A DNA stretch of 43,776 nt from a virus: positions 1-43,776 of the IMG/VR virus record IMGVR_UViG_3300031841_004368, one strand, 5' to 3'. Shown piece after piece: positions 924-17,600 of this stretch (positions are counted from its first letter, which is position 1; every line of letters starts with the position of its first letter). Both the position numbers and the translations under genes were made by a program. The notes beneath the pieces were generated by a model that was given only the letters and a program-made list of their open reading frames with translations, had not been told where the DNA came from and searched no databases.

Positions 924-934
924 GGCAACCTATG
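924..934 (+). repeat. Directional late-gene motif, copy before terminase
   Basis: GGCAACCTATG, 23 bases before the terminase ATG. It diverges from the consensus GG(A/C)AAN(C/T)TAG at the final G only. Confidence 0.5.
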
Positions 935-957
935 TATGTGTAAAAACGGCCATAAGA

Positions 958-2310
958 ATGGGTGTCTTGGGCGTCATCCCCGGCGGTAAATGCTTTGAGC
1001 CTCCCGTACATCGCAGCACAAGATGCACAAAGACATACGACGAGTTCTTCAATATGATTTGGGAGGATCTACTTCCTCACCAAAAAGAGTTTGTAGTTGA
1101 CACGGAACACAAGATATTAGGACTCTGCGCAGGCTTCGGCGCCGGCAAAACGTACAGCCTGTGTGTGCGCATATTGATCGACTGCATGAGATACCCGAAC
1201 ACGGTTTTATGTGTGTTCGAGCCCACCTACCAAATGCTGTTAGACGTATTCATCCGATCATTTGAGGAGATTCTTGAGAAGTACGGCGTCGAGTACGACT
1301 ATCGCGCATCCCCCCAGCCTGAGTTCACTGTCCACACCCCCACCGGCAAAGCAACGCTGCTGTGTAGAACAATGGAGAGCTACAACCGCATCCGTGGCGC
1401 CAACTTAAGCATGGTATATGCCGACGAGATTGATACATCCCGCCCGCATATTGCCGAGAAAGCCTCACAAATGATCTTGGCACGTTTGAGAGGCGGACCC
1501 AACCCACAATTTTGCCTCGCCAGTACACCAGAAGGCTACGGATACATGTGGCAAACATTCACCCAAAGACCCGGAGCTGACCGGCGTCTAATCAAGGCCA
1601 AGACTCTCGACAACCCCTACCTCCCCGACGGATTCGTTGACTCCCTATATGCCAACTACCCACCCCAGCTCCTCGCCGCCTACCTAAACGGAGAGTTTGT
1701 CGCACTCGACAAGACAGTCGTCTATCCATATTTCGACCGCGACACGCACTGGAGCGACGAAACAATCCAGCCCACCGACACGATTTACGTGGGAGCAGAC
1801 TTCAACGTAGGCGCCTCATTCCTAGAGGTTTTCGTCCGTCGTGGTGACGCCTACCACGTCATCGAAGAGCACTACCCGAAGGACACCCCATCCGTCGTCA
1901 AGCTACTGCAAGAGCGCTTCCCAGACCACATAGCGAAGGGCCAGCTCACCATCATCCCCGACGCCAGCTCACGCAAGCGCACCACCAGCAACGCTGCCGA
2001 GAGCGACTTAGGCATTCTCCGCAAAGGCGGCCTACGAGTAAAGATTCAAAACACCAACCCACTAATCGAGGATCGTGTCAACGCAGTCAACGTGCTTCTA
2101 ATGAACAACCGCCTCTACATCAACCCCAGCTGCAAGTATCTAATCCGCAGTTTCGAGACACAGACCTATAACGAAAACGGCAGTCCAGACAAGTCAGGAC
2201 GAGGAGTAGAGGACCGCTCCGGCCCAGTGGATGCTGCAGGCTACGTGATTCACGCCCTTGCGGGTCTGCGCCGTTATGTCACCGGAGGCAGCAATTTCCG
2301 ATACAAGTAA
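958..2310 (+). CDS. terL: Terminase large subunit
   Basis: The motor ATPase and nuclease that packages DNA into proheads, about 450 residues, a normal length. A Walker A loop GFGAGKT lies at residues 59-65 and a Walker B VYADEID at about 153-159. The coupling-motif region CLASTPEG follows near 187-193. The RNase H-like nuclease domain has candidate metal-binding aspartates in VGADFNVG (about 281), IIPDASS (about 334) and GPVDAAGYVIHAL (about 424). The ATG at 958 sits 23 bases after a copy of the late-gene motif, the usual spacing here. An internal ATG at 1054 would shorten the N terminus but keep all motifs. No small terminase subunit is obvious beside it. Confidence 0.95.
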   Translation: MGVLGVIPGGKCFEPPVHRSTRCTKTYDEFFNMIWEDLLPHQKEFVVDTEHKILGLCAGFGAGKTYSLCVRILIDCMRYPNTVLCVFEPTYQMLLDVFIRSFEEILEKYGVEYDYRASPQPEFTVHTPTGKATLLCRTMESYNRIRGANLSMVYADEIDTSRPHIAEKASQMILARLRGGPNPQFCLASTPEGYGYMWQTFTQRPGADRRLIKAKTLDNPYLPDGFVDSLYANYPPQLLAAYLNGEFVALDKTVVYPYFDRDTHWSDETIQPTDTIYVGADFNVGASFLEVFVRRGDAYHVIEEHYPKDTPSVVKLLQERFPDHIAKGQLTIIPDASSRKRTTSNAAESDLGILRKGGLRVKIQNTNPLIEDRVNAVNVLLMNNRLYINPSCKYLIRSFETQTYNENGSPDKSGRGVEDRSGPVDAAGYVIHALAGLRRYVTGGSNFRYK

Positions 2311-2314
2311 GCGA

Positions 2315-2325
2315 GGAAATCTAGG
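2315..2325 (+). repeat. Directional late-gene motif, copy before portal gene
   Basis: GGAAATCTAGG in the 35-base gap between terminase and portal, 20 bases before the GTG start. Confidence 0.65.
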
Positions 2326-2345
2326 CAAAAGACAGCAGCAGAAGA

Positions 2346-3926
2346 GTGTCCCAAGCCCTAAACAGCTCATATCTAGGACGGGATTTTACGCAGGGGCGTT
2401 TATATGATCCCGTAGCACTTCCCAAGCCAGCGGGATCAGAGAACGACCCCAGCGTTCCCAGCAATGCTGTGGTGTCGATGCTAAAGGGATGGGATCCAAT
2501 CAACATTTGCGTGGCCGGCACACAGGGCATCCGCGAGGACGCGAAGCGCGTCTTACCGTTGGAGCCCCGCGAGGACCAAGAGTGTTGGGAGCGCCGGGTT
2601 TTTCATGCGGTGCTACCTCCGTTTCTTAGCCGTCTTGCCGCTCAGGCTTCAGGTCTAATTTTGCGGAAGGGCATCACCTTGGAGGGGGACGACTTCTGGC
2701 AGGAGTGGGCGAAGGACGTATGCGGCGACGGCACCACTTTGAACGCCTTCGCCAGGCGGATGCTCGAAACCAGCATCCTCTACGGCCATAGCAGCGCGAT
2801 CGTAGACATCAACAAGCCCTCCACCAGCCGTCGGTTGACTTTGGCCGACCAGCGGCAGAACCCGATCAAGCCCTACCTAGTCCACGTCCACCCGCAGACG
2901 ATCCGGGGATTCCGCACCGCAGACCAGAACCCCCAGGGCGAGCTGGAGCAAGTCCGCATCCGCGAGCTGGCACTGGAGAGCAAGGGCCGCTTTGGGGAGG
3001 AGCAAGTTGAGCAGATCCGTGTGTTGGAGAAGGGCTCCTACCAGCTATGGCGCAAGACCCCGACCGGTGCGTGGTACATCTACGAGCAAGGCGACACCGA
3101 CCTAGAAAATCTCCCATTCTTCACGGTCTACAGCGACCGCACAGGCACACTCACCAGCAACCCACCGCTCAAGGAAGTGGCGTACATGGCCATCAGCTAC
3201 TGCCAGCGCTGGACCGACTATGCCCATTCGCTCCACGTCGGAGCCATGCCGATCTTGACGATGCGGGGTTTCGACCCTGACGCCGACGCACCGATCGGCA
3301 TCAGTCCGAACACGGCTATTTTGCTGCCCGACACTGGCGGCGCCGAGTATGTCTCCCCCACCAGCGACGCCTTCGACTCCCAGCTGTCAGCACTGAATGC
3401 ACTGGAAGACCAGATCAACCGTTTAGGCATCAATACACTCAACAAAGCCAATCTGACGAATGCTGCTGCAGAAGCCCGCCGACTCGATCGCATCGACAGC
3501 GACTCAATCATGGCGTTAATCAGCACGGACCTCCAGCTGACATTGACCGAGATGATGAAAACGGCTGCTGAATTTGTAGGCATCGAACCCCCGCGCGTCA
3601 TCATCCAACAGGACTACGACAACAAACTGCTGGACGGCAACGGCACCACAGCACTGCTCCAGCTCTACATGCAGGGCGCCATCACCCAGCGAACGCTACT
3701 CAAGGCTCTGTCAGCAGGGGAGGTTCTCCCCGCCGGCACCGACATCGAGGAAGAGATTATCGAGACCCGCGATTATCTGATGGAATTGAACGGCGCCGGG
3801 GGTGACGGATTGGACCCTCTGAGCAACAAGCCGGAGAGTCTGAGCCGCGACAACCGCTCCGGCCAAGGCGAAGACATCAATTCGCAGACCCTGCCCACAC
3901 CCATGCGCCCCGGCAAGAATCCCTGA
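2346..3926 (+). CDS. Portal protein (DUF4055-like)
   Basis: A 526-residue protein in the standard place after the terminase. The segment PPFLSRLAAQASGLILRKG followed by GTTLNAFARRMLETSILYGH and a short VDI strand resembles the DUF4055 portal family of siphoviruses. The protein would form the dodecameric ring at one capsid vertex through which DNA enters and leaves. Start is GTG at 2346, 20 bases after the late motif. The C terminus is polar and glycine-rich, as is common for portals. The MuF-like gene follows after eight bases. Confidence 0.85.
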   Translation: MSQALNSSYLGRDFTQGRLYDPVALPKPAGSENDPSVPSNAVVSMLKGWDPINICVAGTQGIREDAKRVLPLEPREDQECWERRVFHAVLPPFLSRLAAQASGLILRKGITLEGDDFWQEWAKDVCGDGTTLNAFARRMLETSILYGHSSAIVDINKPSTSRRLTLADQRQNPIKPYLVHVHPQTIRGFRTADQNPQGELEQVRIRELALESKGRFGEEQVEQIRVLEKGSYQLWRKTPTGAWYIYEQGDTDLENLPFFTVYSDRTGTLTSNPPLKEVAYMAISYCQRWTDYAHSLHVGAMPILTMRGFDPDADAPIGISPNTAILLPDTGGAEYVSPTSDAFDSQLSALNALEDQINRLGINTLNKANLTNAAAEARRLDRIDSDSIMALISTDLQLTLTEMMKTAAEFVGIEPPRVIIQQDYDNKLLDGNGTTALLQLYMQGAITQRTLLKALSAGEVLPAGTDIEEEIIETRDYLMELNGAGGDGLDPLSNKPESLSRDNRSGQGEDINSQTLPTPMRPGKNP

Positions 3927-3934
3927 GGTAAGCG

Positions 3935-4810
3935 ATGGCCCGTAGCGAACAAGAGAACGAGGAGTATCTAAGGCTTTTATGGCTTCTGCTTCGCGAGAGT
4001 GAAGTCAAGCTGCAGGATGTTACCCGTCCATTGTTGCTTCTGCTGTTATGGCAATTCCGCAACCAGCTTTTAGCCACATTCCCCACCACCGGCCAAAGCC
4101 GACAACTTCAGGTCAGTTCACTGATCAAGAGTCTTGAGGGTCCGCTAGGTCGATACAACGATCAATTCAGGGAAGTATTGATTCGCGAGCTAGAGATAGT
4201 CGATAGTTCCAGTGCCATAGAAGCGTCCAAATTCGCTCAATACGAACTCCCCCTCACCCGCCGCGACTACACACCCCGAAAGGGAGACGACCTTCTCAAA
4301 ACCACCCGCGCGTCAGGAATGACCCTTTACCGCTACCTGACAAAGGATGCGCGAGGGATCAGTCCTTTTATGCGCAACCACATGCGAGCTGCAAGAGCAA
4401 AGGTGGATGCCGGAATTATGAGAGGCGACAGTTCAATAGAGATTGCTCGATCGATCGTGGCAGAGCGCACTGTGCGCGGCTACATCCAACCAATCAACAG
4501 TCGCGGCACGCTCTACGCCTTATTGCGCAACCGCGACACAGCACTAATCGCCAACACCGTGTGGGATGTATCCGGCTATGCCGAGCGAGAAGTTTTTGCC
4601 CGACAGCAGTACCTAACCACACGCAAAGGCAAACCCCCCAGCGCTGAATTTATTCCAAACGGGTGGGTATGGAATGCGATTTTAGATCCGCAGACATGCC
4701 CAATATGCCGCCCCTTACATCTAACGAGGTACGCGAGCATCAGCGACGCACCTTACCGCCCCCCTGTGCATCCTCGTTGTCGCTGTCGTCTTCTACCTGC
4801 ACAGACATAA
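3935..4810 (+). CDS. MuF-like minor head protein
   Basis: A 291-residue protein. Its C-terminal part carries the Mu gpF signature: LDPQTCPICRPLH near residues 250-262 and PPVHPRCRCRLL near 276-287. The paired CxxC and HxxCxC pattern suggests metal binding. The family acts in head morphogenesis and is often packaged with the DNA. The N-terminal two thirds is mainly helical, with a leucine-rich segment (RPLLLLLLWQFRNQLL) around residues 31-46. A GAGG ribosome-binding sequence precedes the ATG. The position directly after the portal gene is standard. Confidence 0.85.
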   Translation: MARSEQENEEYLRLLWLLLRESEVKLQDVTRPLLLLLLWQFRNQLLATFPTTGQSRQLQVSSLIKSLEGPLGRYNDQFREVLIRELEIVDSSSAIEASKFAQYELPLTRRDYTPRKGDDLLKTTRASGMTLYRYLTKDARGISPFMRNHMRAARAKVDAGIMRGDSSIEIARSIVAERTVRGYIQPINSRGTLYALLRNRDTALIANTVWDVSGYAEREVFARQQYLTTRKGKPPSAEFIPNGWVWNAILDPQTCPICRPLHLTRYASISDAPYRPPVHPRCRCRLLPAQT

Positions 4811-4821
4811 GGCAACCTAGA
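4811..4821 (+). repeat. Directional late-gene motif, copy before scaffold gene
   Basis: GGCAACCTAGA starts directly after the TAA stop of the MuF-like gene and ends 19 bases before the scaffold ATG. Confidence 0.7.
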
Positions 4822-4840
4822 TTGCACTATCCCACCCGAC

Positions 4841-5554
4841 ATGCCTGAGCAACAGATTCCTGCAGAGCAGGAGTCAGCGGCAGTTGATTCCGTGAATCAA
4901 CCCCCAGCCGAGGATGCTTCTGCACTACGCGCCAAATTAGAACTTGTTCAACGGGACAATCTCGCCAAAGGCGAGGCGAACCGCAGTCTGAACGAAAGGC
5001 TTGGCGAGAGTGAGAAACGTCTACGGGAAATGGAAAGCCAGCTCAAGGCAACCAACCAGCAAACGCTCGAATCAAGCGGGGAGTACAAACAGCTTTGGCA
5101 GGACGCTTCAGCAGAGAACGGCAAGTTGATGCAGCGCATCAGCGAGCTTGAGGGACAACTACAGCAACGTGACCAAGCCATCAGCGCCGAGCGATTGAAG
5201 GCAAGCACGATCAATAAGTTGTCAGCTGCAGGAGCAATCAGTCCAGAGCAGTTATACGGCCTTCTTCAGTCGCAACTGAGGGAATCAAACGGCCAACCTG
5301 CAGTGATTGTCAACGGCATCGAGCAACCACTCGACGCCCATCTGAGCACACTGAAGAGTGAAAACAGCGGTTGGGACCATCACTTTGCAGCCAATCGTGG
5401 CGCAACCGGGATGGGCAGCAGGACTTCCACCAGCGTGGAGGCAAATGCAAACCCCTTCAAAAAGGAGAGTTTCAACATGACAGAAGCTCTTTTGATGGAG
5501 GAAAAGAATCCCGATCTAGCTAAGCGCCTACGTGCGGAAGCTGGTCTGGGGTGA
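4841..5554 (+). CDS. Probable capsid scaffolding protein
   Basis: A 237-residue acidic protein with a long charged region, residues about 28-125, rich in Glu, Gln, Arg and Leu and expected to be coiled coil. Such proteins direct assembly of the major capsid protein and then leave or are digested. The C terminus (NPFKKESFNMTEALLMEEKNP) is basic and then helical, as in scaffold tails that contact the capsid protein. It lies directly upstream of the major capsid gene, the usual place. No protease domain is visible, so this appears to be a separate scaffold without a fused protease. Confidence 0.8.
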   Translation: MPEQQIPAEQESAAVDSVNQPPAEDASALRAKLELVQRDNLAKGEANRSLNERLGESEKRLREMESQLKATNQQTLESSGEYKQLWQDASAENGKLMQRISELEGQLQQRDQAISAERLKASTINKLSAAGAISPEQLYGLLQSQLRESNGQPAVIVNGIEQPLDAHLSTLKSENSGWDHHFAANRGATGMGSRTSTSVEANANPFKKESFNMTEALLMEEKNPDLAKRLRAEAGLG

Positions 5555-5583
5555 TCACGGTAAACCCCTTTCTTTAAGAAAAA

Positions 5584-6669
5584 ATGGCAGTCCTTCAGAA
5601 CTTCGTCGGGGGTACTCTCCTTGGCGATCTTATTGTCCGCCCTAATTTCGGGGCTTGGACCAGCGAGCGCATCTACGAACTGAGCCGTTTTGTTCAGTCC
5701 GGCCTGATCGAGCGCAACCAAAACTTGGCAGCGAGCGCTGGCGGCACTCGGACTCAGCTCCCAATGCTGACTCCCATCGACCCCACGTCTGAGCGGATTG
5801 ATTCCTCAGAAGTCTGGGGCACCTCTGGCGCCGGCTACCTGAGCATCCAGAAAGTCGGATCTCAGGACCACATTGTCTCGATCTACCGTCGCGGTTTCGC
5901 ATACGGCACTGACGACATCAGCAAAATGGGCTCTGGCCTTGCTGATCCTCTGGGCCACGTTCGCGACCAGCTTGCTGCTGCCGTGAACAAGCTGAACACC
6001 ACCAGCGCACGCAGTGTGATGGAAGGTGCCTTTGGCCCCATCGTTCCCGACGGTGTTCTTCAGAACTTCGCGATCGACAAGACCGGCGGTGCAGCTCCCA
6101 CTGCAGTCAACTATCTGGCAGCCGCTTCGGTGATCGAGGCCAAGCAACTCCTCGGAGAGCGCGGAACCGATCTCACCGGCATGGTGATGCACAGTGCTGT
6201 TGCTTCCTATCTGGAAGAGCAGGGCTATATGCAGGCTCTGGTTGACGGCAGCACCGTCTACGCCGGCCAGGGCATCGGCGTCGGTAGCGGCTCCGGCTTT
6301 GCCGGTCGCGCCTTCGGCATGAACGTCATCATTGATGATCAGTTCGGCCCACTTGCCGGCGGCACCTCTGGCGACGTGAAGAAGTATCCCGTCTATCTGG
6401 CGAAGGGCGGTGTGATGCAAACCGCATCACAAAGTGATCTTCGCATCAACTATGACAGGAACATCCTGAGCTTCCAGGATCAACTGGCAGTGGACTTCCA
6501 CCAGTGCCATACGATCCCCGGAGTCAGCTGGACTTCTGCAACGGACAACCCCACCGATGCAGCGCTTGCCACCAGCACCAACTACGGTGCTTCATACACC
6601 GATCTGCGGAACGTGGGTCTGGTTCGCCTCTTGGTGAACACCCCTTACGATCCCACCACCTACGCCTGA
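5584..6669 (+). CDS. Major capsid protein
   Basis: A 361-residue protein, identified by size, position after the scaffold and general character: an N-terminal arm (MAVLQNFVGGTLLGDLIVRP), a serine/threonine-rich E-loop-like region, a central helix (LGHVRDQLAAAVNKLNTTSARSVMEGA) and a glycine-rich core. It is probably HK97-fold, though the fold cannot be proven from sequence reading. Codon choice looks clean and C/G-ending, as expected of a highly expressed gene. It is followed by a strong hairpin terminator, consistent with a high transcript level. The preceding gap has only a poor match (GGTAAACCCC) to the late-gene motif. Confidence 0.85.
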   Translation: MAVLQNFVGGTLLGDLIVRPNFGAWTSERIYELSRFVQSGLIERNQNLAASAGGTRTQLPMLTPIDPTSERIDSSEVWGTSGAGYLSIQKVGSQDHIVSIYRRGFAYGTDDISKMGSGLADPLGHVRDQLAAAVNKLNTTSARSVMEGAFGPIVPDGVLQNFAIDKTGGAAPTAVNYLAAASVIEAKQLLGERGTDLTGMVMHSAVASYLEEQGYMQALVDGSTVYAGQGIGVGSGSGFAGRAFGMNVIIDDQFGPLAGGTSGDVKKYPVYLAKGGVMQTASQSDLRINYDRNILSFQDQLAVDFHQCHTIPGVSWTSATDNPTDAALATSTNYGASYTDLRNVGLVRLLVNTPYDPTTYA

Positions 6670-6690
6670 TTCAAGGCGTTGACAGCAAAG

Positions 6691-6716
6691 AGCCCCCTTG
6701 CGGGGGCTTTTTTTTT
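6691..6716. terminator. Strong terminator after the capsid gene, probably bidirectional
   Basis: Perfect stem AGCCCCC / GGGGGCT with a 4-base loop (6691-6708), followed by an unbroken run of T. It lies between the converging capsid gene and the minus-strand gene ending at 6738. Confidence 0.9.
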
Positions 6717-6737
6717 GCGTGCTTGACGCTATCGGTG

Positions 6738-7019
6738 TCACTTCTTAGTTCTGTTCTTCTCAAACCTCTCGAAGGTTGCTTTCGTGTTGACCGTCGATTG
6801 GTATGAGCGCGTCCGCACTTGTTTAACAAGCATCGGATTGATCTTTAGTTCCTCTGCGATCTGAGTATCAGTCTTACCTTCACCCATCAGCCGATGCAGA
6901 TCCTTTACGAGATCATCCCAGAGCCGTTCGTTAAGCCCTTCTGCGGCCTTTGCGGCTACACGATCAGCTTTACGACGCCCTTTGGTGTAACTGACCTTAT
7001 GCGAAAGCTCTTCTGTCAT
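6738..7019 (-). CDS. Small helix-turn-helix DNA-binding protein
   Basis: A 93-residue basic protein read against the surrounding late genes. A likely helix-turn-helix lies at about residues 52-70 (TDTQIAEELKINPMLVKQVR), followed by a basic tail ending ERFEKNRTKK. The ATG at 7019 was preferred over an upstream frame extension because a minus-strand copy of the late-gene motif (7047-7036) lies just before it and the extension would run into the next gene's leader. It could be a regulator of late genes or a displaced small terminase subunit, which also starts with such a motif; the sequence does not decide. Confidence 0.65.
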   Translation of the reverse strand: MTEELSHKVSYTKGRRKADRVAAKAAEGLNERLWDDLVKDLHRLMGEGKTDTQIAEELKINPMLVKQVRTRSYQSTVNTKATFERFEKNRTKK

Positions 7020-7035
7020 GCCCAAGTTTGACTCT

Positions 7036-7066
7036 CCATAGATTGCCTCACCAGGCAACCTTGGAG
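7036..7066. repeat. Divergent pair of late-gene motifs
   Basis: The minus strand carries GGCAATCTATGG (7047-7036) and the plus strand GGCAACCTTGG (7054-7064). They sit back to back with a six-base spacer. Each points towards its own gene, the minus-strand gene starting at 7019 and the plus-strand gene starting at 7085. Together they form an imperfect inverted repeat. Confidence 0.65.
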
Positions 7067-7084
7067 TAAAGGGCGGAGAAGACC

Positions 7085-7639
7085 TTGGCACCAGTCATCA
7101 ACGCTACCGCAGGCGACGCACAGGCAAACAGCTACCTGAGCGTTGTAGATGCAGATAGCATTGCCGACTCGATGTTGGGGACATTGGCGTGGACAACCGC
7201 CAGTGCAGATGACCGCGCTCGCGCACTGGTGACAGCGACAAACGGCCTAGAAACACTGACCTACATCGGCACCAAGACCACAGACACCCAAGCATTACTG
7301 TGGCCCCGCACTGACGCCAAATGCGGCGACAAAGCACCAAGTGAGGACGCCATCCCCCGCGAGATTGAGCTAGCCACTTTTGACTTAGCCGAAGCACTCC
7401 TGGCTGATTCAACAATTCTGCGCAACACCCAGGCAGGCGGTGAACTTGTGCCCGGAGTACCCAATGCCGACCTCCGCCGGCTAAAGCTTGACGTGCTCGA
7501 ACTTGAATGGAAGGGCACAGGCTCACGCACCACACGACCAGCATCACCACTGACCGCACTTCCTCATCTGCGCACGCTGATTGGCTGTCTATTGGTTGGT
7601 CAGCAGAGCACAAATCTGATCTCAGTGGTCAGATCTTAG
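7085..7639 (+). CDS. Head-tail connector / adaptor protein
   Basis: A 184-residue protein. The pattern ANSYLSVVDADSIADSML, then RARALVTATNGLETL, QALLWPRTDA and AIPREIELATFDLAEALL matches the helical adaptor family often labelled DnaT-like or head-tail connector. These proteins sit below the portal and hold the neck. The start is TTG at 7085, 20 bases after its motif copy. It follows the capsid gene in the usual order apart from the inverted gene inserted between them. Confidence 0.7.
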   Translation: MAPVINATAGDAQANSYLSVVDADSIADSMLGTLAWTTASADDRARALVTATNGLETLTYIGTKTTDTQALLWPRTDAKCGDKAPSEDAIPREIELATFDLAEALLADSTILRNTQAGGELVPGVPNADLRRLKLDVLELEWKGTGSRTTRPASPLTALPHLRTLIGCLLVGQQSTNLISVVRS

Positions 7640-7684
7640 TACCCCTAAATAGGGTCGATAGATTGAAGAACACGCCCTAAGAGT

Positions 7685-8209
7685 TTGCCGCGCAACCAGC
7701 GACCACGAACGGGCTACCTAAGCACACCTCTATCACGGGAGGAGCAGAGGTACGCAGCCGATATGTATCGCCAGCACCAGGGGCTAGTCAGGATGATGGG
7801 CCGCAAGCTTTGCCGTAAATACCCGTTTGTCTCATCTGAGGATGTGTTCAGCAGCATTGACTTTGCCTTCTTAAAGGTATGTCGCGCATGGCGTCCCGAG
7901 CGCGGTGCATTTAGCACACTTCTAGGTGTGTTTTGTGAAGGCGAAGTATTGCACTTCATCCGTGACCATAACTTCATCATCAAAGCCCCCGGCAACGTGC
8001 GCCGCACAGGTCAGCTTGCTCGACGACTTTTAAGCAAAGGTGCATCTAAGGACCAAGTAATGGTTGAGCTATCAATCACCTCAGAGCAGTTTGAGCAGGC
8101 TCTAATCGCAACATGCGCTGCTGACCATGAGATTAAAGGGTTTGAGTTGCACATTTGCCCCAGAGCTACACCTATGGAGACTTTAGAAATGAATGATACG
8201 GCAAATTAG
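7685..8209 (+). CDS. Short sigma-factor-like protein with regions 2 and 3 only
   Basis: A 174-residue protein. Residues about 31-98 align with sigma-70 region 2: HQGLVRMMGRKL, then VSSEDVFSSIDFAFLKVCRAW, the diagnostic RPERGAFSTLLGVFCEGEVL, and HFIRDHNF. Residues about 100-140 (APGNVRRTGQLARRLL, then a helix-turn-helix-like DQVMVELSITSEQFEQAL) match region 3 of SigB/SigF-type factors. No region 4 follows, so the protein could not contact a -35 element in the normal way. Layout and size recall the T4 late sigma gp55. It probably directs host RNA polymerase to late promoters. Start is TTG at 7685; a later ATG at 7763 would cut into region 2. Confidence 0.7.
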   Translation: MPRNQRPRTGYLSTPLSREEQRYAADMYRQHQGLVRMMGRKLCRKYPFVSSEDVFSSIDFAFLKVCRAWRPERGAFSTLLGVFCEGEVLHFIRDHNFIIKAPGNVRRTGQLARRLLSKGASKDQVMVELSITSEQFEQALIATCAADHEIKGFELHICPRATPMETLEMNDTAN

Positions 8210-8210
8210 C
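8200..8210 (+). repeat. Directional late-gene motif, copy before tail tube gene
   Basis: GGCAAATTAGC overlaps the TAG stop of the sigma-like gene and ends 26 bases before the tail tube ATG. Confidence 0.5.
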
Positions 8211-8236
8211 TCAAAGCAAATCTGCACTCTTGAGTA

Positions 8237-8716
8237 ATGGCTACAGGAGCATTTTTTAATAGCCTCGGGTATCGCCTCTACGTCGCGGCGGGCACGACCG
8301 CATCGGCAATCCCAACCGATGCCACTGGCATGACGGAGCTGATCTCCCTCACCAACGCCGGCATCCAAGGTTCTTCCGAGACTCAAGAAGTCCAAGACTA
8401 CGGCTCGACTCTTGGCTTCACGGCTGCAATCGTCACCACTCAGTCTTACTCCATCCCCTGCACGCTCAACCTCAACCTGAACGATCCGGGCTACGCGATT
8501 CTCAAGAACGCAGCACTCAACTCAGCCACCGGCACTACGGTCACTTGGTATCGCGAATCTCCCGAGATGAGTGCGACTGGTGATCCTGAGAAGCACGCCG
8601 GAGTCGCATTCGTCACCGACTTCTCCGAGAGTATTGAGGCAGGCACCGTGGCGACTGTCTCGTTCACCCTGGCCGGTTACGGGGCTTACAGCTACACAGC
8701 TGAGACCGACATCTAA
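8237..8716 (+). CDS. Major tail tube protein
   Basis: A 159-residue beta-rich protein. The start GAFFNSLGYRLYVAAG, the segment VQDYGSTLGFTAAIVTTQSYSIPCTLNLN and the end SIEAGTVATVSFTLAGYGAY are typical of lambda-gpV-like tube subunits, which open with a small domain and end in an IEAGxxxxxxFTLxGxG strand. It would polymerise into the tail tube around the tape measure. A strong terminator follows, as after the capsid gene, consistent with heavy expression. Confidence 0.8.
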   Translation: MATGAFFNSLGYRLYVAAGTTASAIPTDATGMTELISLTNAGIQGSSETQEVQDYGSTLGFTAAIVTTQSYSIPCTLNLNLNDPGYAILKNAALNSATGTTVTWYRESPEMSATGDPEKHAGVAFVTDFSESIEAGTVATVSFTLAGYGAYSYTAETDI

Positions 8717-8751
8717 TCCTGTCGATACATTAGTTGGGAGAGCAGAGCTGC

Positions 8752-8777
8752 AGCCCCGCTTGTCGGGGCTTTTTCTT
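8752..8777 (+). terminator. Terminator after the tail tube gene
   Basis: Stem AGCCCCG / CGGGGCT with a 5-base loop (8752-8770), followed by TTTTCTTT. Confidence 0.85.
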
Positions 8778-8778
8778 T

Positions 8779-8946
8779 ATGCCAGTCGAGACTGAGATGA
8801 CTGAAGACGGATGTGTGAAGATCACAGTGACCGAGGAAGGGATCACGGAGGTTGGTTGGGTGTCCTCGTTTCACTTGGTTGCTCCGAAAGTCACGCAGTT
8901 GGTTAGCAGCATTCGCAAGAAAGCGATGAACGCATTATTTACTTGA
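8779..8946 (+). CDS. Small acidic hypothetical protein
   Basis: A 55-residue protein starting at ATG 8779 immediately after the terminator's T-run. It contains VKITVTEEGITEVGWVSSFHLVAPKVTQLVSSIRKKAM. An upstream in-frame ATG at 8734 would translate through the terminator hairpin, so the later start is preferred. Its end overlaps the minus-strand gene at 8939 by eight bases. Being placed right behind a terminator, it would need read-through or its own promoter, so its reality is uncertain. Function unknown. Confidence 0.4.
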   Translation: MPVETEMTEDGCVKITVTEEGITEVGWVSSFHLVAPKVTQLVSSIRKKAMNALFT

Positions 8947-9397
8947 ACTGCTCTTGCAGGAACGGAAGCACAGGCACTCTTTCGCGTGCCAGTGTCACCC
9001 AGTCACGCGGAGTGCGATAGAACGGCGTGCCGTCGAGGCCTATGTAATCGCCCGTGATCACCTGCTCGGCGTAATAGGCATCCCAGCCGATTACAGCCGT
9101 GACCTTCTTGTTTCCCTTCGCGGGGTATGGTTTCTGCAGCGACGCGGCAAGGAAGCCGGTGTCGGAAATTTCGCGAACATCTTGCACTCTTCTTCCGTCA
9201 TTCTTATACCAAGTGACTGTACTTCCGGTTTCGCGCTCACGGTAGCCGGTCCATTTCTTGTTGTAAATTATCTCCGTACCTTCCTGGCCGATAAAATCCT
9301 GAAAATTAGACAGGCCCACATACAGCTCAAGAGCAAGCTCTTCACCGAACTGCTCAGTTGACTTGGTGAACCTAGATCTGCCTAATCTTACTGTCAT
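8939..9397 (-). CDS. Tail-completion protein, HK97 gp10-like (probable)
   Basis: A 152-residue protein on the minus strand inside the late module. A helical start (FTKSTEQFGEELALELYVGL) leads to DTGFLAASLQKPYP, VTAVIGWDAYYAEQVITGD and PRDWVTLARERVPVLPF. The run (S/D)TGxLxxSL, then a strand with YAxxV, then a final helix is the usual outline of HK97 gp10-like neck proteins. Start ATG 9397 overlaps the stop of the preceding gene (ATGA), so the two are coupled. Its orientation against the other head genes is unusual. Confidence 0.6.
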   Translation of the reverse strand: MTVRLGRSRFTKSTEQFGEELALELYVGLSNFQDFIGQEGTEIIYNKKWTGYRERETGSTVTWYKNDGRRVQDVREISDTGFLAASLQKPYPAKGNKKVTAVIGWDAYYAEQVITGDYIGLDGTPFYRTPRDWVTLARERVPVLPFLQEQFK

Positions 9398-9783
9398 CTC
9401 TGTCTCCTAGACACCAGCACAATCTTCTCCCCCAGCGCCTGAGCGAGCACACCACCAAGCAAACCAGTTTTCCCGTAAGGAGGATTCAGCTCAAGCACCT
9501 CACAATCCACAGCGGGCTCGGAAGCGAACGTAACGGACCCTGTAGAACCCACCAGCACACGACTGTCGAGCGTGCTTACTACATAGCCTTCATAATATGT
9601 CTGCTCAATGTCTACACCGGGGAACTGACGATTCCGTTGCTTATCGGACTTTAGGAACAGATCGACAGTGGCGGTTTCCTCCACCGGTTTGATATTTCCG
9701 GTTTCTGGATCCGTTATGGTTGCCTCCCCAGCCACTTTGAAAGAGGCAGAGGCGTTTTTTAGTCCGGTGAGAGCAGATGCCAT
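9394..9783 (-). CDS. Probable head-closure (stopper) protein
   Basis: A 129-residue beta-rich protein. Segments ETATVDLFLKSDK, VDIEQTYYEGYVVST and DCEVLELNPPYGKTGLLGGVLAQAL suggest a small barrel with an exposed loop, compatible with a neck stopper that seals the filled head. The function is inferred mainly from its coupling to the gp10-like gene downstream, since stopper then completion protein is the usual order. It starts at ATG 9783, directly after a minus-strand copy of the late motif. It diverges from the tape measure gene. Confidence 0.45.
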   Translation of the reverse strand: MASALTGLKNASASFKVAGEATITDPETGNIKPVEETATVDLFLKSDKQRNRQFPGVDIEQTYYEGYVVSTLDSRVLVGSTGSVTFASEPAVDCEVLELNPPYGKTGLLGGVLAQALGEKIVLVSRRQR

Positions 9784-9784
9784 G

Positions 9785-9808
9785 CCCTAACTTGCCAGGC
9801 AATCTTGG
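9785..9808. repeat. Divergent pair of late-gene motifs
   Basis: The minus strand reads GGCAAGTTAGGG (9796-9785), one base from the minus-strand ATG. The plus strand reads GGCAATCTTGG (9798-9808), 24 bases before the tape measure ATG. The two motifs are separated by a single base and form an inverted repeat, like the pair at 7036-7066. Confidence 0.65.
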
Positions 9809-9832
9809 TTTATAGGGCATTAGCAGGTAGAC

Positions 9833-12800
9833 ATGGCTCAAGGTGGCGACGGTTTAGATCTTGGCGCAGCTGAGATTAAGGTTGTCGTCGATTACAGCAG
9901 TGCGCTTGAGGGTGTCAAGCAGTTTAAGACCCAGTTCGACAGCACTTTAAGTGGGACTGGCGCCAATGTATTCCAGGGCATCGAGCAGCAGGCAATAGCC
10001 GCTGGACGCAAGGCTGCGAACTCCTTTGCGGCTGCTTTTAAGAAGGTCAAGATCGAGCCTGTCGTCAAGGCCGGCAACAAGAATGAGCTGTCTGAGATTC
10101 AGAAGCTGGTCCAGGAAGCGACAAAGCCTATTAAAGAGCGTGCAGGCGCACCACTAGCCCAGCTATTTAAGCTCCAGCCGCAGACCGTCGGGGACTACAA
10201 AGAGCTTGCAGCAGGTCTCGACAAGATCAGAAGCAATACTAATGCGGGTGCTTCTGAGATCGAGCTACTTAATAGGAAGATCGAGGATCTGAGGCTGTCA
10301 CTGAAGCTTCTGACTTCGACCGGCACGACAACTTTTGACGATCTACGGGAGAGCGCCCAAAGGACCATTCCTCTCACTAAGAAAATAGGTGACGCCATAC
10401 TTGGTGCGACGCCCGCGTGGGTTTCCTTCAGTACAAAAACAGTTGCCGATGTAATCCAGGCTCTTGATGCCACCGGGCAGAAGGCCACAGAACTGGCGCA
10501 AAAATTCAAGGGAGCAGCGAGCGCTGCGAAGGGCATCGTCAGCGTCACCAAGGACGTAGCAGGTGCCGGCTTCAATGTCGCTAAGCGTGGTGTTGGGGAT
10601 CTGTCTATCGTCGGAAGTGCTTTAGCCGGCAGAGAGTCTTCCCAGAAGTTGCTGAGCGATCGACTTCAAATCTTCAGGGATTTAGGCACAGAAGCGAAGA
10701 CAACAGCAGGTGCCATCACCCGTATCTCAGAGGGCGCCGGCCTTTTGGGTATCTCAGCCAACCTAGCTCCATCACTCGATGCACTCAGCGGTCTGACTGG
10801 TCTGATCAGAGAGGTTGTGACCTCAAGCGAGTCCATTGTCGATAAGGGTTTAAGCAAGCTGCCATTTGGCCTTGACGTTCTGGAACAAGTTCCCAACATT
10901 GGCTCAGGTGCGACTCGGATTCTGGATGAAACAGTTAAACAGGGATCCGCACTTGCGAACACACTCGCGCCGATTGGCGATCTAATCAACGACGTAGCAG
11001 CGCAGCTGACAGCAATAGGACCAGCAGGCGCCGTGGGCTTTGCAGCTGCTACAGCAGCCGCTGCTGCGCTTGAGAGCAAATTCAAGCTGATAGAGAAGTC
11101 AGTCAACGCCGTTGCGTCGAAGATCAAGTTCAATCTTGGTGAGATAAAGGCGGAGTTAGCAAAGCCTCTACCCTTGGGTGAGCTTGAGGATCTGCTCAAG
11201 GCTGAAAGATCTGGGCTCAGGGAAGTAACCCCCGGCTCACAAGAAGAGAAGAATGCTCTGATCACCATTGCATCGCTGGAGAATCAGATCACCGACCAGA
11301 AGAAAGCGCAGGAGCGGTTCACCAAGCAGATCACAATGAGCGAGAGGGAGCGCCTCAGTTATGTGAGGGCTGCGGTGGACCTTGAGCGTGTTGCAAAGAA
11401 CGAGAGAGGCCGACTACCTGCACTGCCCAGCACGCAGCAGCTTCAGCGGACAGTCGATAGTCAAGGTCGCGTTTTCCCTCAGCGGATCAACGGCACGATC
11501 GATTTCACCAATCCTCTGACGGTAGGCAACCAGTACACACCGGAGGGCCGGCGATTCTTCGGCGGTAACGCATTCGACAGTCTTGACAACCAGCTCACGA
11601 ATGCTCCAAGGACTGACTACCGCGACATTTTGCGCCGGTTTCTGGCGGCTGAGGATGGGTTTTTTGACAAGAGGATCGAGTTTTTCAGCAAGGAAGAGAA
11701 GAGGTTCAGTGACATTGATACTGCACGCAGGAATGACCGCAACCTGAAGGCATCTAAACGATCACGTTCGCGTCTAAATGCTTTTGCTGCGCTAAGTGGA
11801 GGTGATTACGCCTATGAGCAGTTCCTGAAGCAATCCGGCGCGGATATAGCCTCCCAGCTTGGGAGAATCCAGGACGATTTCGACACAGCAACGAACTTCA
11901 GGACTGCACTCGACGACCGGCGACGCAGCAGAGAACAGGAAGAAGCCGACCGCCGCCGCCGTCTGCGCCGCAAGCGCAGTAGGGAGAGGATTAACCGTGT
12001 CATTCAGGCGCGTAAACGGAATGCAGACAGACGCTCCGGTGCTTTGCAAGGCGGCTTAATCGGCGGCGGCTTCCCTCTGCTATTCGGGCAAGGCGCTTTG
12101 CCTGCCATTGGAGGTGGTATTGGAGGTGTTGTTGGTGGTCTTTTAGGCGGTCCGGGCGGGTCATTTGCCGGCAGTATCGTGGGCACTGCGATCTTCACTG
12201 CTCTTGACGGCCTAGCCAACAGTGCCAATACAGCAGCTGCGGCCCTTGAGAAACCAGTCGAGTCGCTGAATAAGCTGGTTGAGGGCAAGTTGATCACCAG
12301 CAGCACAGCGAACCTGGCCTCGACAGTTCAAGGACAAGGCCAGCTGGCACTGGCCCGTTTGATTATTGATCAGGGGTTAAGGGAAACCGGCGCTGACGAG
12401 CTTGTAAACCCAAGAAAAGCTCAGGAAGTCAAGGACAGAGAGTTTGTCGATACTCAAAACCAGATAGCAATCCAGAAACAGTTCGGCGGCTTTGACTTAG
12501 GCAGAGATATTCAGAGAGCCGTGTCTTTCTATACCGGAGTTTATGACGATCTTTCTACCAACTTTGCAATCGAAACAAGAGATGAAAACGGGGACTTACT
12601 TGTAAATCCCAGGCTTAGAGCCAGGGAGACATTAGCCGGAGCTGCTATAGGCAAATTGAAAGATGCAGCTGTTAAGGCAAAAATCATTACAGAAAAGGAA
12701 TACAATAAAGAGTTTATTGCTGGCCAGCTAGAGGCTGGCAACGTCGGGCAAAACCTACTTGGCACATTTCCCATTAGGTCAAAAGTCACAGAAGTAGGCC

Positions 12801-13939
12801 AAAATCTTATCGACTTTCTTAGGGGTAAAGACCCAGACTTTTTAACAAATATACCAGAATTTGCTGAGATATTCAATGAATCCAAAGAGTCTATTGCGGC
12901 TCAAGAAAAACTCTTGGGCAAGCAGAAAGACATATTCGGAGTAGATTTAGATCTGGCGAAAGTATCCGGCAAGGATGCAGATGCAGAAATAAAATTTCTT
13001 GAGAAGAAGCTAGGTCTTACGAGAAAATTTAATAGAGCAAACGAAGAGGTCATTCAGAACGATGCAGAGCGAAGTGCCGCGAATCAGAAGAACCTTGCAG
13101 CTGAGGAGCAAGCACTAAGGAGGATCAACGATCTCAAGGTCAAGTCCCTTCAGCAAGATCTCGCTTTCTCGAACAACATCTCTGCATTATCCCGCCAGCG
13201 AGTTGACCTACTGGCTGCGCAGGGCAAGGAAGACCCGTCAAGCTTCCTTCAGATACAGGGAGTTTTAAGTCAGTTCCTTGCTCAGCGGGATCAGGCCAAT
13301 CTTCTCTCGCAGGTCGCTGCTGAGGATTTTGAGAACGTAGAGGCAGGGAGGCGGGCCACTGAGGCCAGCGAGACTCTGAAGAACGGCTACCTAGAGGCCA
13401 ACCTAACCCTGAAGAAAGGTCTTGAGGACGCTCAGCGCCAGGCCCGCAACATCGGCTTCGCACTGAACGATGCGCTGGGCAATCTGGCCACGGCCCAGCA
13501 GGGCTTCGCAGGACTAGGGAACCTCCAGACCATCAGCGTAAGCGGCGGCCCTGACATTTTCGAGGCGTTCCGGGGCAAACGTGATCAAGCCCTGCAGCTG
13601 GCCAAGGATCTTGGAGTGACGCTGGACTTCGACGTACCGGTGAGCGGGGTGTTGACCGAGCGGTTCGCGAGGCGTCAGATCCGCGACTTCGACAAGTTCA
13701 TTGAGGCCGGCAGACCATTACGTGACGCCCGAGTAGGTGTTGAGGATGCTCAGCGTAGTAAGGATATAAGCGACGAGACGGTTCAGAACTTCAAAACTGC
13801 AATCGCATCTCTGAACAGTGAAGCCACCCCTGCAATGAGAGACCTAGCCACCAGCGTTGATAACCTGGCCAAGAAAGAATGGCGCATTGACATTCAAGTT
13901 GAGGGGCAACCTAGAGTCATCAGGGAAGGCGTTTACTAA
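9833..13939 (+). CDS. Tail tape measure protein
   Basis: At 1368 residues it is the largest protein here; it sets tail length and probably helps DNA entry. It is mostly helical and charged, with long heptad-like stretches (for example residues 1060-1110 and 1150-1210). A very glycine-rich hydrophobic stretch at about residues 734-790 (GGLIGGGFPLLFGQGALPA, then IGGGIGGVVGGLLGG) may enter the membrane. A strongly basic run RRRRLRRKRSRERINRV precedes it near 705-725. No lysozyme or peptidase domain is visible. It begins with MAQGGDGLDLGAAEIKVVVDY, a beta-strand opening seen in many tape measures. Base composition is locally richer in A and T around 12380-13080. Confidence 0.95.
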   Translation: MAQGGDGLDLGAAEIKVVVDYSSALEGVKQFKTQFDSTLSGTGANVFQGIEQQAIAAGRKAANSFAAAFKKVKIEPVVKAGNKNELSEIQKLVQEATKPIKERAGAPLAQLFKLQPQTVGDYKELAAGLDKIRSNTNAGASEIELLNRKIEDLRLSLKLLTSTGTTTFDDLRESAQRTIPLTKKIGDAILGATPAWVSFSTKTVADVIQALDATGQKATELAQKFKGAASAAKGIVSVTKDVAGAGFNVAKRGVGDLSIVGSALAGRESSQKLLSDRLQIFRDLGTEAKTTAGAITRISEGAGLLGISANLAPSLDALSGLTGLIREVVTSSESIVDKGLSKLPFGLDVLEQVPNIGSGATRILDETVKQGSALANTLAPIGDLINDVAAQLTAIGPAGAVGFAAATAAAAALESKFKLIEKSVNAVASKIKFNLGEIKAELAKPLPLGELEDLLKAERSGLREVTPGSQEEKNALITIASLENQITDQKKAQERFTKQITMSERERLSYVRAAVDLERVAKNERGRLPALPSTQQLQRTVDSQGRVFPQRINGTIDFTNPLTVGNQYTPEGRRFFGGNAFDSLDNQLTNAPRTDYRDILRRFLAAEDGFFDKRIEFFSKEEKRFSDIDTARRNDRNLKASKRSRSRLNAFAALSGGDYAYEQFLKQSGADIASQLGRIQDDFDTATNFRTALDDRRRSREQEEADRRRRLRRKRSRERINRVIQARKRNADRRSGALQGGLIGGGFPLLFGQGALPAIGGGIGGVVGGLLGGPGGSFAGSIVGTAIFTALDGLANSANTAAAALEKPVESLNKLVEGKLITSSTANLASTVQGQGQLALARLIIDQGLRETGADELVNPRKAQEVKDREFVDTQNQIAIQKQFGGFDLGRDIQRAVSFYTGVYDDLSTNFAIETRDENGDLLVNPRLRARETLAGAAIGKLKDAAVKAKIITEKEYNKEFIAGQLEAGNVGQNLLGTFPIRSKVTEVGQNLIDFLRGKDPDFLTNIPEFAEIFNESKESIAAQEKLLGKQKDIFGVDLDLAKVSGKDADAEIKFLEKKLGLTRKFNRANEEVIQNDAERSAANQKNLAAEEQALRRINDLKVKSLQQDLAFSNNISALSRQRVDLLAAQGKEDPSSFLQIQGVLSQFLAQRDQANLLSQVAAEDFENVEAGRRATEASETLKNGYLEANLTLKKGLEDAQRQARNIGFALNDALGNLATAQQGFAGLGNLQTISVSGGPDIFEAFRGKRDQALQLAKDLGVTLDFDVPVSGVLTERFARRQIRDFDKFIEAGRPLRDARVGVEDAQRSKDISDETVQNFKTAIASLNSEATPAMRDLATSVDNLAKKEWRIDIQVEGQPRVIREGVY

Positions 13940-14661
13940 TGACCGTTACGGTTGGCGGCCTGTCGTTTGGCAATCTGGTCGCCCAACCGTTGGAGTACGA
14001 CGGTGAGGCCAGATTCGGAAGGACCGCAACCGCCTGGCGCCTGCAGGGCCTGCTTACATTTGCGCAGTGGAGTCTGCTGCAATCCACCTACAAGGGCTGG
14101 CGAGACGTTCGCATAAACGACGAAGATTCACGCACCAGCAACTCGATCGGAACCACCGTCACATTCAGCGGCACCGCCGCCGGCATCACATGGACAAACA
14201 TACCCTGCTGGTTCAGCCAGGCGCCGTCCGGTGAGAGCAAGGGTCAATACGTCCAGTGTGACTTCACGCTGATCAATGCTGCCGAGGCACTACAAGCCCT
14301 GCAGGCAGACACCGAGGACAACTTCACCTTCGGGACGTTCACCTATGGCGCCGTGCTTAAGCTCCGCGCACCGGTCGAGACGTATGCTTTCCTCCCGCAG
14401 ATTCAGCAGACGGTCTCCGGCGCCCACTACATCTCCGGCCCGAACGCACTGACGGAGGCCTATCAAATCGAGGGCGAGACGGACTCCGCCGGATGGGCTC
14501 AAGTTCTCAGTCGCTACAGCACTGATGTGGCCGGCACACCATCAGTTGGCCAGTATTTCCCGACCGCCCCACCGGCAGCAGCAGCTGAGGCTCGAATTGA
14601 GAACGGCGTCAGATCGGACATCTTCGTTGTCTCGTTGTCACTGATCAAGGTGATCGGCTGA
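13939..14661 (+). CDS. Distal tail-like protein
   Basis: A 240-residue protein starting at an overlapping TAATG with the tape measure stop, so translation is coupled. The N terminus (VTVGGLSFGNLVAQPLEYDGEARFGRTATAWRLQGLLT) and beta-rich body fit a distal tail or minor tail protein that joins the tube to the hub. A probable flexible Ala/Pro segment (PTAPPAAAAEARIENGVRS) lies near residues 209-227. The assignment rests on position between tape measure and hub and on general character. Confidence 0.55.
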   Translation: MTVTVGGLSFGNLVAQPLEYDGEARFGRTATAWRLQGLLTFAQWSLLQSTYKGWRDVRINDEDSRTSNSIGTTVTFSGTAAGITWTNIPCWFSQAPSGESKGQYVQCDFTLINAAEALQALQADTEDNFTFGTFTYGAVLKLRAPVETYAFLPQIQQTVSGAHYISGPNALTEAYQIEGETDSAGWAQVLSRYSTDVAGTPSVGQYFPTAPPAAAAEARIENGVRSDIFVVSLSLIKVIG

Positions 14662-17600
14662 TGGCAATTACAGACATCCGGGCTCAATCCACCCTGAACG
14701 GGCTGCCAATCACGCAGGGCAGCGTCAGCGACTCCTTTGCGACGGGCGGCGGCTGGATCACCACCACCGGCCAAGTCACGTTATTAGGTCTTCATAGCTT
14801 TTCGATTGGTGGCACGGCGAGTATCAACACAATCCCGCGCACGCTCTATGTGCTGGGCGTGTGCCCGGATCCCTACAGCAACATCACGATCGTCACCGTC
14901 GGGTGTCGCCTCAGCGTTCTGCGCAATCAAGTCCCAGACATCAACCAAGAGCTTGAGGATTTGGAGCAGGAGCAGTGCGAGGACGACATCGACACCTACG
15001 CCGCCAGTGGGTTTCGCGGCCAAGGCGTGATTACGGATCTGGGCACCATCTGGTCGAAGTGCATGAATGAGCTTGGCTTCACCGGCTCTTTGACCTCTGG
15101 GATCAAGATCCATGTCAGCAAAAAAGACGGCTTCGACTTCTCTTCCGGGTATTTGCGAATAGCGGAAGAGATTCTGGTATCAGAGGCGAAGTACGCCTAC
15201 GCCGATGGCACGCAGATCCGTGTCATCACACCCGGCAATAGCGGTCTCTACATCTACGGCAACACCCTGCTGGATCTGTCGGCTTCCAGCACAACCGACG
15301 TTCCCAAGAAGGACGCGCTGATCAGGTATGAAACGGTTGAGATCACACCCCCCGACGACGGCGAAAACGTCCCAGAGGTAGAGGAGCCCGACGCATGGAC
15401 GAAGGATGAAACACAGGGCGAGAAGCCCCAGCGCGTCAAATACGAGCGCCGTGATAACGGCGTGGCGACCTACCTCTACAACCACGACTTCGTTTCCTAC
15501 ACCTCTAGCGAGACCACCTATTACGACGAGGTGAAGCCGCCGGATAATCCTACGTGCGAAGAACAGTCCTATGAGCCATCGTTCGAGGAGTTGGTCTCAG
15601 GGAAGATCAAGGAGCGCATCACGAAGCAACGGGTGACGCTCGGCAACGACTGTCAGGCCTACTGCGAGTTCCTGATTGATATAGAGAATGTCGAGCCCAA
15701 CTACGAGCTGGAGGGCTTTGTCACCACAACGGAGACTTACACCTACGACGACTTTGGGGAGCTGAGCAAGGTCGAGACAGTGACAGTCCAGCCTCAGTTC
15801 CTGGCGTTCTCAGATCTACCTAACCTGCTTGGGATCGATGGCGATTATGTGTCGCTGACCGCCTTCGACATGGAGGTGGAGAAGACCGTCGTTGAGTACA
15901 CCAACATCTACGAAAACGGCGGCTTCGTCAACGACCGGATCTACAAAACGGCATCAGGCGATTACAAACTGCTGAAGGGGCGCAAGACAAAGACTTCCCG
16001 GTACGTGCCCTACTTCAAAACCAACAACTTCCGCCACCGGCTTCAGGTGATGAGGGAGTTGGGTCAGCTGAGCAGCATCGAGGACATCGGATGGGTGTGG
16101 GACAACCTTGTGTTCCCGATCGGGCCAGGTGAGAACTGCGAGGCATCGAATCTGATCAGCAGCGAGATCGTCACCGAGGCCGGCAGGGACATCACCAGCT
16201 TTGTGCAGTCCCGCCCCACCGGGAAGCTGCCCGCGCAGAGCGGGGATATTACGCAAAGCAAGCTAGAGACTCCCGAGTTTCAGAACCTCACCAAGTCCGA
16301 GAAATTCACGTTTAGGGGGCATGACTTTGGCGAAGGATTCACTGAGTACAGCGTGCCCTTCACCGGCTCGGATTATTACAAGCGTTATGGATCACCTGGG
16401 AGCTATACATGGAGGAAGAAGGAAGGCGACCGTTCTAATTTGGGCCGGTGTGCTGAGTTACAGCACCGCATGGCTTTTGGTCGAACTGCTGCCTACACAG
16501 CCGTCATACCCGCTAGCCGGTGCCCTACGTCGCCGTTGTTTTCAGCACGCATCCAGAATCTTTCAGCGCAATTCATCTGCTCCGGCGTCACATGGCAGTT
16601 GAGCGACACCGGGGCCGTCGCGGCCCTTGACCTTGTGCTTTGGTCAAACACGGTCTCAGGATTCCTGCCTTCCTACCCCGGCACGCTGAACACAGTCTGG
16701 GATGTGACCTACAACGACCAGGGCGATTATCTGACCGCTTCTCAAATCTCCGACTATTTGGGCACGACCGAGTGGTATGTGGACAACAACAACACGGTGA
16801 CTCTTGACCCCAGCGGCACGGGTGATTATTCCAACACGCAGGGGAACCTTCTGCTTCCTGACGGTGAAGTTGCTGAGGGCAACCAGCCCCCGGTATGGGT
16901 CGAAGAGCAGTCGATCGAGCTTGTAACACAGACCACTTGCACCGCTAAGGTTTTAAGCCATGAGCTGACAAACACATTAGAGCAGGTCGATATAACCACA
17001 AGGTCATTGCTAATCTATGGGCCAAAGTGGATTTATCCACAAGCTGGGACGTTTACAAAATACTGCTCTGAAGCGCCCTACATCATTGACCGCTTCCTTG
17101 CTCTTGACCCAGGTAACTACACAGAATCATCGTCTGGCAACACCAAGCTAATACAGACCTACCCAGATTTGCTTGCAAACGCAGGAGCGTTCAGCTCAGC
17201 GGGTTTTGCGATTGATGCGAAGCAATTTACTTATCAACTAGAGTGCAACGCAGCAAGTTTCAGCTTGAGCGGCAGTGACGCAATCACCATTGCTGACAGG
17301 TTGGTTCCTGCTGATGCAGGATCCTTCACTCAGGCCACGCCAAACAATCTTTTGATACAGGAAGTTAGTGAACTGTTCTCCTACCCAAATTACAACGGGA
17401 CTACAACAACCACAGCAAATGGTGGGTACGCGATGACCACGTATAACACCTACACCAGCGCAAACTACGGAACACAGGTTGGTTGGTATGTGAGGTTTGC
17501 CAACCTTGACATCAACGGCAATAGCATTATCAGTCCTACTTATTTCAATACAACTGACACCTACCAGATTGAGTGGGGACCAGACAGCACTGTATGGAGA

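Follow-up and report, generated by a model that had tools for sequence, protein, structure and literature searches.

Does a small sigma-like protein encoded among the late genes of a virus direct the transcription of those genes, and if so, through which signal in the DNA? The question is raised by a stretch of viral DNA 43,776 nucleotides long (IMG/VR record IMGVR_UViG_3300031841_004368, hereafter the window), in which a preliminary description, made from the letters without database searches, had proposed a second, minimal sigma factor in addition to an RpoD-like one and had suggested that it could recognise a dispersed CTAG motif.

A minimal sigma relative at the head-tail joint

The open reading frame at 7685-8209 on the plus strand, here called SIG, is present as described: it starts with TTG, encodes 174 residues and contains the segment RPERGAFSTL. 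TTG stands at the equivalent site in two close relatives, L002 and L023. SIG and its counterpart in L002 share 80% amino acid and 69% nucleotide identity, and their nucleotide differences are distributed over the first, second and third codon positions as 33, 19 and 108, a bias that marks SIG as a protein under purifying selection.

Profile searches do find sigma families, as had been claimed from the sequence. Two PHROG families, both annotated as RNA polymerase sigma factor, match SIG (PHROG 351, E=1e-8; PHROG 36098, E=2e-7), as does NCBIfam SigF (E=7e-4), with a score that falls short of the model cut-off. Pfam Sigma70_r2 aligns with window SIG alone at E=1.4e-3, scoring less than the gathering threshold, and is matched by 10 of the 12 members of the SIG family, the best at 1.8e-6. 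When a family profile built from 12 relatives was searched against the PDB, it matched S. aureus SigB (8x6g_H) across regions 2-3 at 1e-5 and sigma F (1l0o) at 4e-4, which, together with the NCBIfam match, bears out the resemblance to SigB and SigF noticed initially. The AlphaFold2 model contains the expected helical core of region 2 (pLDDT ~90), then the HTH of region 3, with a tail that is poorly ordered. Its top Foldseek matches in the PDB are almost all sigma subunits, the named best matches among viral models are mostly sigma factors, and region 2 superposes on the N-terminal domain of SigE with a target-normalised TM-score of 0.78. Whole-chain matches to PDB structures reach E-values no better than 2e-3, modest figures attributable to the uncertain relative placement of the domains in the model (pTM 0.55). 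SIG is a genuine sigma relative with regions 2 and 3, nearest to SigB/SigF, although on our reading of the alignment its polymerase-contact residues in region 2.2 deviate from those of canonical sigma factors.

On the plus strand, region 2 occupies 7763-7972 (residues ~27-96, from the Pfam alignment and the high-pLDDT helices), and the region 3 HTH occupies 7991-8113 (residues ~103-143, with model helices at 103-117, 122-129 and 133-143 and the match to the SigB profile). A conserved tail, HxCPRxTPxxxLE in the alignment of relatives, follows at 8120-8206 and stands where region 4 would otherwise be. IMG/VR searches yielded 17 loci and then the best 80 of 146 relatives; among the matches listed about 95 are SIG relatives, all ending without region 4. 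Every relative whose frame was traced stops ~30 residues beyond region 3 with a common C-terminus carrying an HxCPRPTPWxxLE-type motif, so that the missing region 4 noted in the preliminary description characterises the family and does not come from truncation in this contig. SIG is derived from group 3 sigma-70 proteins without being a complete member, since region 4 is absent. An ECF identity, which combines regions 2 and 4 and lacks region 3, was ruled out, as SIG has region 3 and no region 4.

The neighbourhood of SIG is equally constant. The head-tail adaptor gene Ad1 lies directly 5' of it (7085-7639, plus strand; PHROG 477, E=2.5e-25, and synteny) and the major tail protein gene, MTP, directly 3' (8237-8716, plus strand; PHROG tail families and synteny), and the order Ad1 - SIG - MTP recurs in essentially every locus among the relatives listed. 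The siphovirus-type late module first proposed as the setting of SIG is thus confirmed, but its placement within the head module has to be corrected to the joint between head and tail. MTP is commonly followed in related loci by minus-strand homologues of the window gene at 9394-9783, less often by homologues of that at 8939-9397, and then by plus-strand tail genes; in the window, too, these two genes lie on the minus strand inside a plus-strand tail region. The RpoD-like factor also exists as reported: the gene at 32575-33594 on the minus strand encodes a full sigma with regions 1.2, 2 and 4, the second sigma of this phage, and 10 of 16 longer related records contain a strong match to it.

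Other features of the window were recorded alongside. A minus-strand gene for an HTH protein (6738-7091) lies between the major capsid gene and Ad1, divergent from the latter and preceded by its own weak element; it occurs in many, not all, related loci and was rejected as a split-off region 4 or gp33-like partner, many loci having no detected homologue. A large serine recombinase of XisF/phage integrase type is encoded at 35093-36550, and related records contain a serine integrase, a tyrosine integrase or none detectable. An inverted repeat resembling AACCTCTCTAGGTT appears at 38458-38469, 38531-38543 and 42187-42200, near polA/PrimPol and an early-region gene, and looks like an operator. As to the host, we infer that the window phage infects a cyanobacterium, since cyanophages predominate both among the isolates closest to it by sigma and among the best matches to its portal. 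A search of genome contigs returned one match only, the head-tail region of a relative in a short contig labelled as a Rhodoferax MAG (L100), which is probably a mis-binned phage contig; that search found no prophage host for the SIG family.

A repeated element before the late genes

Reading the intergenic regions of the window first suggested the element GG[A/C]AAnYTAG. For homologous genes, 566 upstream regions remained after deduplication, and an unsupervised EM run on them recovered the motif cGG[C/A]AAcCTAGG de novo in 281. The late element, GG[A/C]AAnYTAG[G/A], lies on the strand of its gene, inverted genes of the late region included. Its frequency differs sharply between genes: it precedes MTP in 68 of 68 loci, homologues of the minus-strand gene 9394-9783 in 53 of 54, the gene in scaffold position in 36 of 39, Ad1 in 54 of 68, the portal gene in 16 of 18 and TMP in all six. 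Upstream of SIG itself (4/73), mHead (0/27) and g14661 (0/38), all of which stand close behind other genes, it is scarce or absent, and it is rare or absent before polA, PrimPol, the integrase and the RpoD-like sigma (one sequence each). A late region interrupted by genes on the opposite strand requires that those genes have promoters of their own; the homologues of 9394-9783 retain their minus orientation in most related loci, and do so with a minus-strand element.

In the window, copies were scored with a hold-out matrix, from whose training set the window and relatives close to it had been excluded. Of the 19 hits that score 12 bits or more, 15 fall between 10 and 45 nt ahead of a gene start, a placement whose P of 4e-24 is indicative only, the gene list being the analyst's own. 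From left to right on the plus strand, elements precede terL (924-934; 34 nt from the start; 12.8 bits), the portal gene (2315-2325; 31 nt; 16.0 bits), the gene in scaffold position (4811-4821; 30 nt; 15.4 bits), Ad1 (7054-7064; 31 nt; 14.2 bits; probably serving SIG too), MTP (8200-8210; 37 nt; 12.0 bits) and the gene in tape-measure position (9798-9808; 35 nt; 12.6 bits). Further along the same strand they stand before the genes starting at 13939 (13905-13915; 34 nt; 14.9 bits), 17948 (17912-17922; 36 nt; 15.2 bits), 22594 (22581-22591; 13 nt; 15.7 bits), 23808 (23778-23788; 30 nt; 14.8 bits), 25440 (25406-25416; 34 nt; 15.8 bits), 27811 (27783-27793; 28 nt; 12.9 bits), 29434 (29406-29416; 28 nt; 15.6 bits) and 29977 (29944-29954; 33 nt; 15.6 bits). 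A late -10-like element outside the structural region precedes gene 41922 (41893-41903; 29 nt; 12.5 bits). Two copies lie on the minus strand: a weaker one upstream of the HTH gene (7037-7047; 28 nt from the ATG at 7019; 10.2 bits) and one at leaderless spacing upstream of gene 9394-9783 (9786-9796; 13 nt; 10.7 bits).

Measured from its first G to the start codon, the spacing of the element peaks at 28 nt and mostly falls within 26-38 nt; a second, sharp peak stands at exactly 13 nt, and there every start is ATG. An A and a T four bases apart, like A-11 and T-7 of -10 elements, are among the least variable columns in 235 non-redundant instances. Placing this T at -7 gives the element the numbering G-14 G-13 M-12 A-11 A-10 n Y-8 T-7 A-6 G-5, and A is enriched 13 and 14 positions beyond the first G, at the expected +1, to which leaderless ATGs add a small part. 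In this register the 13-nt spacing would result in leaderless mRNAs. Upstream of the element no column among the 235 sites exceeds 0.17 bits, and hence no -35 is conserved, as expected for a sigma without region 4. The dispersed CTAG motif of the preliminary description therefore survives as part of a longer element in extended -10 register; bare CTAG was rejected as a signal, being scarcer in the window than expected (95 occurrences against 125-135). Over positions 1-20000, a generic sigma-70 promoter scan found seven sites against 11 in shuffles, and terminators occurred at chance level (20 against 19.4), so that only the two strongest, at 6687-6712 and 8752-8770, deserve mention.

Which protein would read the element

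Comparison across phages links the element with SIG. Cyanophage KBS-S-2A has terL, the portal, MCP, Ad1 and an RpoD-like sigma in common with the window but has no SIG, and 81 loci of its type (0.80 Mb in total and devoid of SIG matches) served as a SIG-less comparison set. With a matrix trained on the SIG-bearing set, sites 26-38 nt upstream of starts number two in the 0.80 Mb of SIG-less loci against 287 in 0.97 Mb of SIG-bearing ones, and total matrix matches in the SIG-less loci equal the shuffled expectation. Nor did motif discovery within the SIG-less loci, run de novo, yield any element with so sharp a placement, and the late element is missing near gene starts in KBS-S-2A, S-2L and MED4-184. 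The association is a correlation, and SIG-bearing lineages also have MTP and some other genes in common.

A second lineage extends the comparison. S-CBS2-type sigmas are homologous to SIG (profile-profile hhalign, 4e-12) and have no detectable Pfam region 4. Since the window-clade matrix found few sites in their loci, eight of them at 26-38 nt, a separate de novo search was run there; it returned TGgTAnACT, an extended -10 placed mostly 27-35 nt upstream of starts with a minor peak at 14 nt. It differs from the consensus of the window clade, as co-evolution of sigma and promoter would lead one to expect. For P-SS2-type phages the number of loci was insufficient for de novo motif discovery. Conversely, L007- and L005-type records contain SIG and the element with no detectable RpoD-like sigma. 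Taken with the register, these comparisons make SIG very probably the reader of the CTAG-containing late element.

Two other readings were weighed, and to each we assign a small probability. Firstly, the element could be an operator comparable to the stoperators of mycobacteriophage L5, a repressor site silencing the late genes of a prophage, with SIG as a separate regulator. Like stoperators, it is short, asymmetric, repeated through the genome, co-oriented with transcription and located in short intergenic gaps (PMC9283540), and the serine integrase of the window would fit a prophage. A fixed distance to the start codon, with a second mode at leaderless spacing, is however not expected of repressor sites, and neither are the A-11/T-7 architecture of a -10 promoter and the enrichment of A at +1. 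At the equivalent place, phages of S-CBS2 type have an extended -10 of canonical form, and three long records without an integrase match (G006-G008, that is L061, L090 and L095), which may be incomplete, still carry the element. Secondly, and with a similarly slight chance of being right, the element could be a promoter read by the RpoD-like sigma, or by a host sigma with an unseen activator, leaving SIG as an accessory factor or an anti-sigma or decoy. Promoter architecture leaves its reader unnamed, and most SIG-bearing phages do have the RpoD-like sigma. Against this, KBS-S-2A-like phages have that sigma and lack both SIG and the element, the L007 and L005 records show the converse, the two SIG lineages differ in consensus, and the missing -35 suits a sigma without region 4. 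A hairpin of GNRA-loop type in the leader RNA, or a processing or translation signal in place of a promoter, is very improbable and the hairpin was dropped: a few window copies (27783, 29406) can be paired on paper with a GNAA-like loop, yet the would-be stem flanks are unconserved, and at the 13-nt sites the element stops 2-3 nt before the start codon, which leaves no room for an ordinary leader function.

We therefore favour, with considerable confidence, the reading that SIG would be a group-3-related late sigma which has lost region 4 and reads the -10-only promoters of a dispersed late regulon. The mechanism that we propose builds on the computed homology, synteny, element, register and association, and extends by inference to polymerase binding, promoter function, timing, autoregulation and host. 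Region 2 of SIG would dock on the beta' clamp helices of the host RNA polymerase, probably that of a cyanobacterium, whilst regions 2.3-2.4 and 3 would read the extended -10 from about -14 to -4, with no contact made at -35. Most late genes or short clusters, those on the opposite strand included, appear to have their own copy of the element, and one small protein would thus switch on a dispersed late regulon. SIG, which has no element of its own, is probably transcribed from that of Ad1, in which case its synthesis would reinforce itself. The RpoD-like factor may act on a different set of genes; the suggestion made at the outset was that early and late programmes may use different sigma proteins.

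Some relatives of SIG carry peptides that resemble clamp-binding motifs, for which the bacterial consensus is QL(S/D)LF, described as C-terminal (PMC9690074). Among S-CBS2-type sigmas of at least 240 residues, 32 of 38 end in Q-x-[SNDG]-L-F, a pattern found at 34 of 2,181 ORF ends in these loci, 33 of the 34 being the sigma. The sigmas with C-terminal QxSLF belong to S-CBS2-type loci L203-L241; gp077 of S-CBS2 itself is shorter, with 206 residues, and has no such end, as though truncated. Several minimal sigmas of the L004-L015 clade (e.g. L004, L006 and L007) instead start with EQLDLF or a variant, and in the two long records of this subclade no RpoD-like sigma was seen. The QxSLF and QLDLF groups form separate clades on the sigma tree, which is compatible with two origins. 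No phage-encoded beta clamp was detected in the records of 16 relatives. Siphovirus late sigmas of SigF-type descent might accordingly couple late transcription to replication through the host beta sliding clamp, in the manner of T4, with a tether site that depends on the lineage, an idea we put forward tentatively and would rate a little below an even chance. Window SIG has neither QxSLF nor QLDLF, and a scan of all window frames gave scattered, chance-like matches only; for the window phage replication coupling thus stays a hypothesis, and its lineage may use another partner or none.

Relation to known sigma factors and late promoters

The nearest known counterparts are found in cyanosiphoviruses. 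Phage P-SS2 carries a group 2 and a group 3 sigma, the latter proposed to serve a particular regulon (PMC2784084), and by tblastn SIG matches the sigmas of P-SS2, S-CBS2 and S-CRES1 at 28-31%. These proteins (P-SS2 ORF003, S-CBS2 gp077 and S-CRES1 gp20) are homologous to SIG over the C-terminal half of region 2, region 3 and a PTxxLE stretch; like SIG, they have a partner of RpoD/group 2 type in the same phage, no Pfam region 4 and an extended -10 upstream of genes. They differ in adjoining terL and in their length of 203-244 residues, many having a C-terminal helical extension with QxSLF, whereas the 174-residue SIG lies between Ad1 and MTP with the element GG[A/C]AAnYTAG[G/A]. Cyanobacterial SigF and Bacillus SigB share with SIG regions 2-3 and the signature GEIxxxxRD. 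Promoters of cyanobacterial SigF need two blocks, GGTAA at -12 and TAGGC at -32 (review PMC2758279); the GGTAA resembles the GGMAA that the phage element places in -10 register, but TAGGC has no counterpart in the phage promoters, where no -32/-35 block exists, in step with the absence from SIG of the region 4 that SigF retains.

The two-sigma arrangement is thus already known. A literature search, conducted mainly outside subscription journals, found no account of this lineage of sigmas without region 4, of their promoter element or of the clamp motifs; as far as we have found, the minimal late sigma with -10-only promoters is new, and so is the regulon mapped for it. If the proposal is true, widespread and largely uncultured aquatic siphoviruses gain a late regulon that can be read from the sequence of any contig, together with a sigma that seemingly works with a single -10 element and a small system in which to ask how a sigma without region 4 initiates on a host polymerase.

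The closest functional parallel is T4. There gp55 recognises late promoters that consist of a -10 element alone, and carries a clamp-binding epitope at its end (PMC2988020, PMC7892883). Kinship with gp55, raised as a possibility by the size of SIG, found no support, the PHROG hits being two general sigma families and the PDB profile searches returning no gp55 chain. The T4 system also differs in its gp33 and its phage beta clamp, counterparts of which were not identified for SIG, and a terminal clamp peptide like that of gp55 occurs in some SIG relatives and not in window SIG. Both are nonetheless small late factors based on region 2, with dispersed -10-only promoters before late genes, those of SIG defined in silico. 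If SIG acts as proposed, it would provide a second and apparently independent case in which late promoters follow the T4 pattern. Through the peptides that resemble clamp-binding motifs, S-CRES1 and other cultured relatives would allow a direct test of whether late transcription is coupled to replication outside T4.
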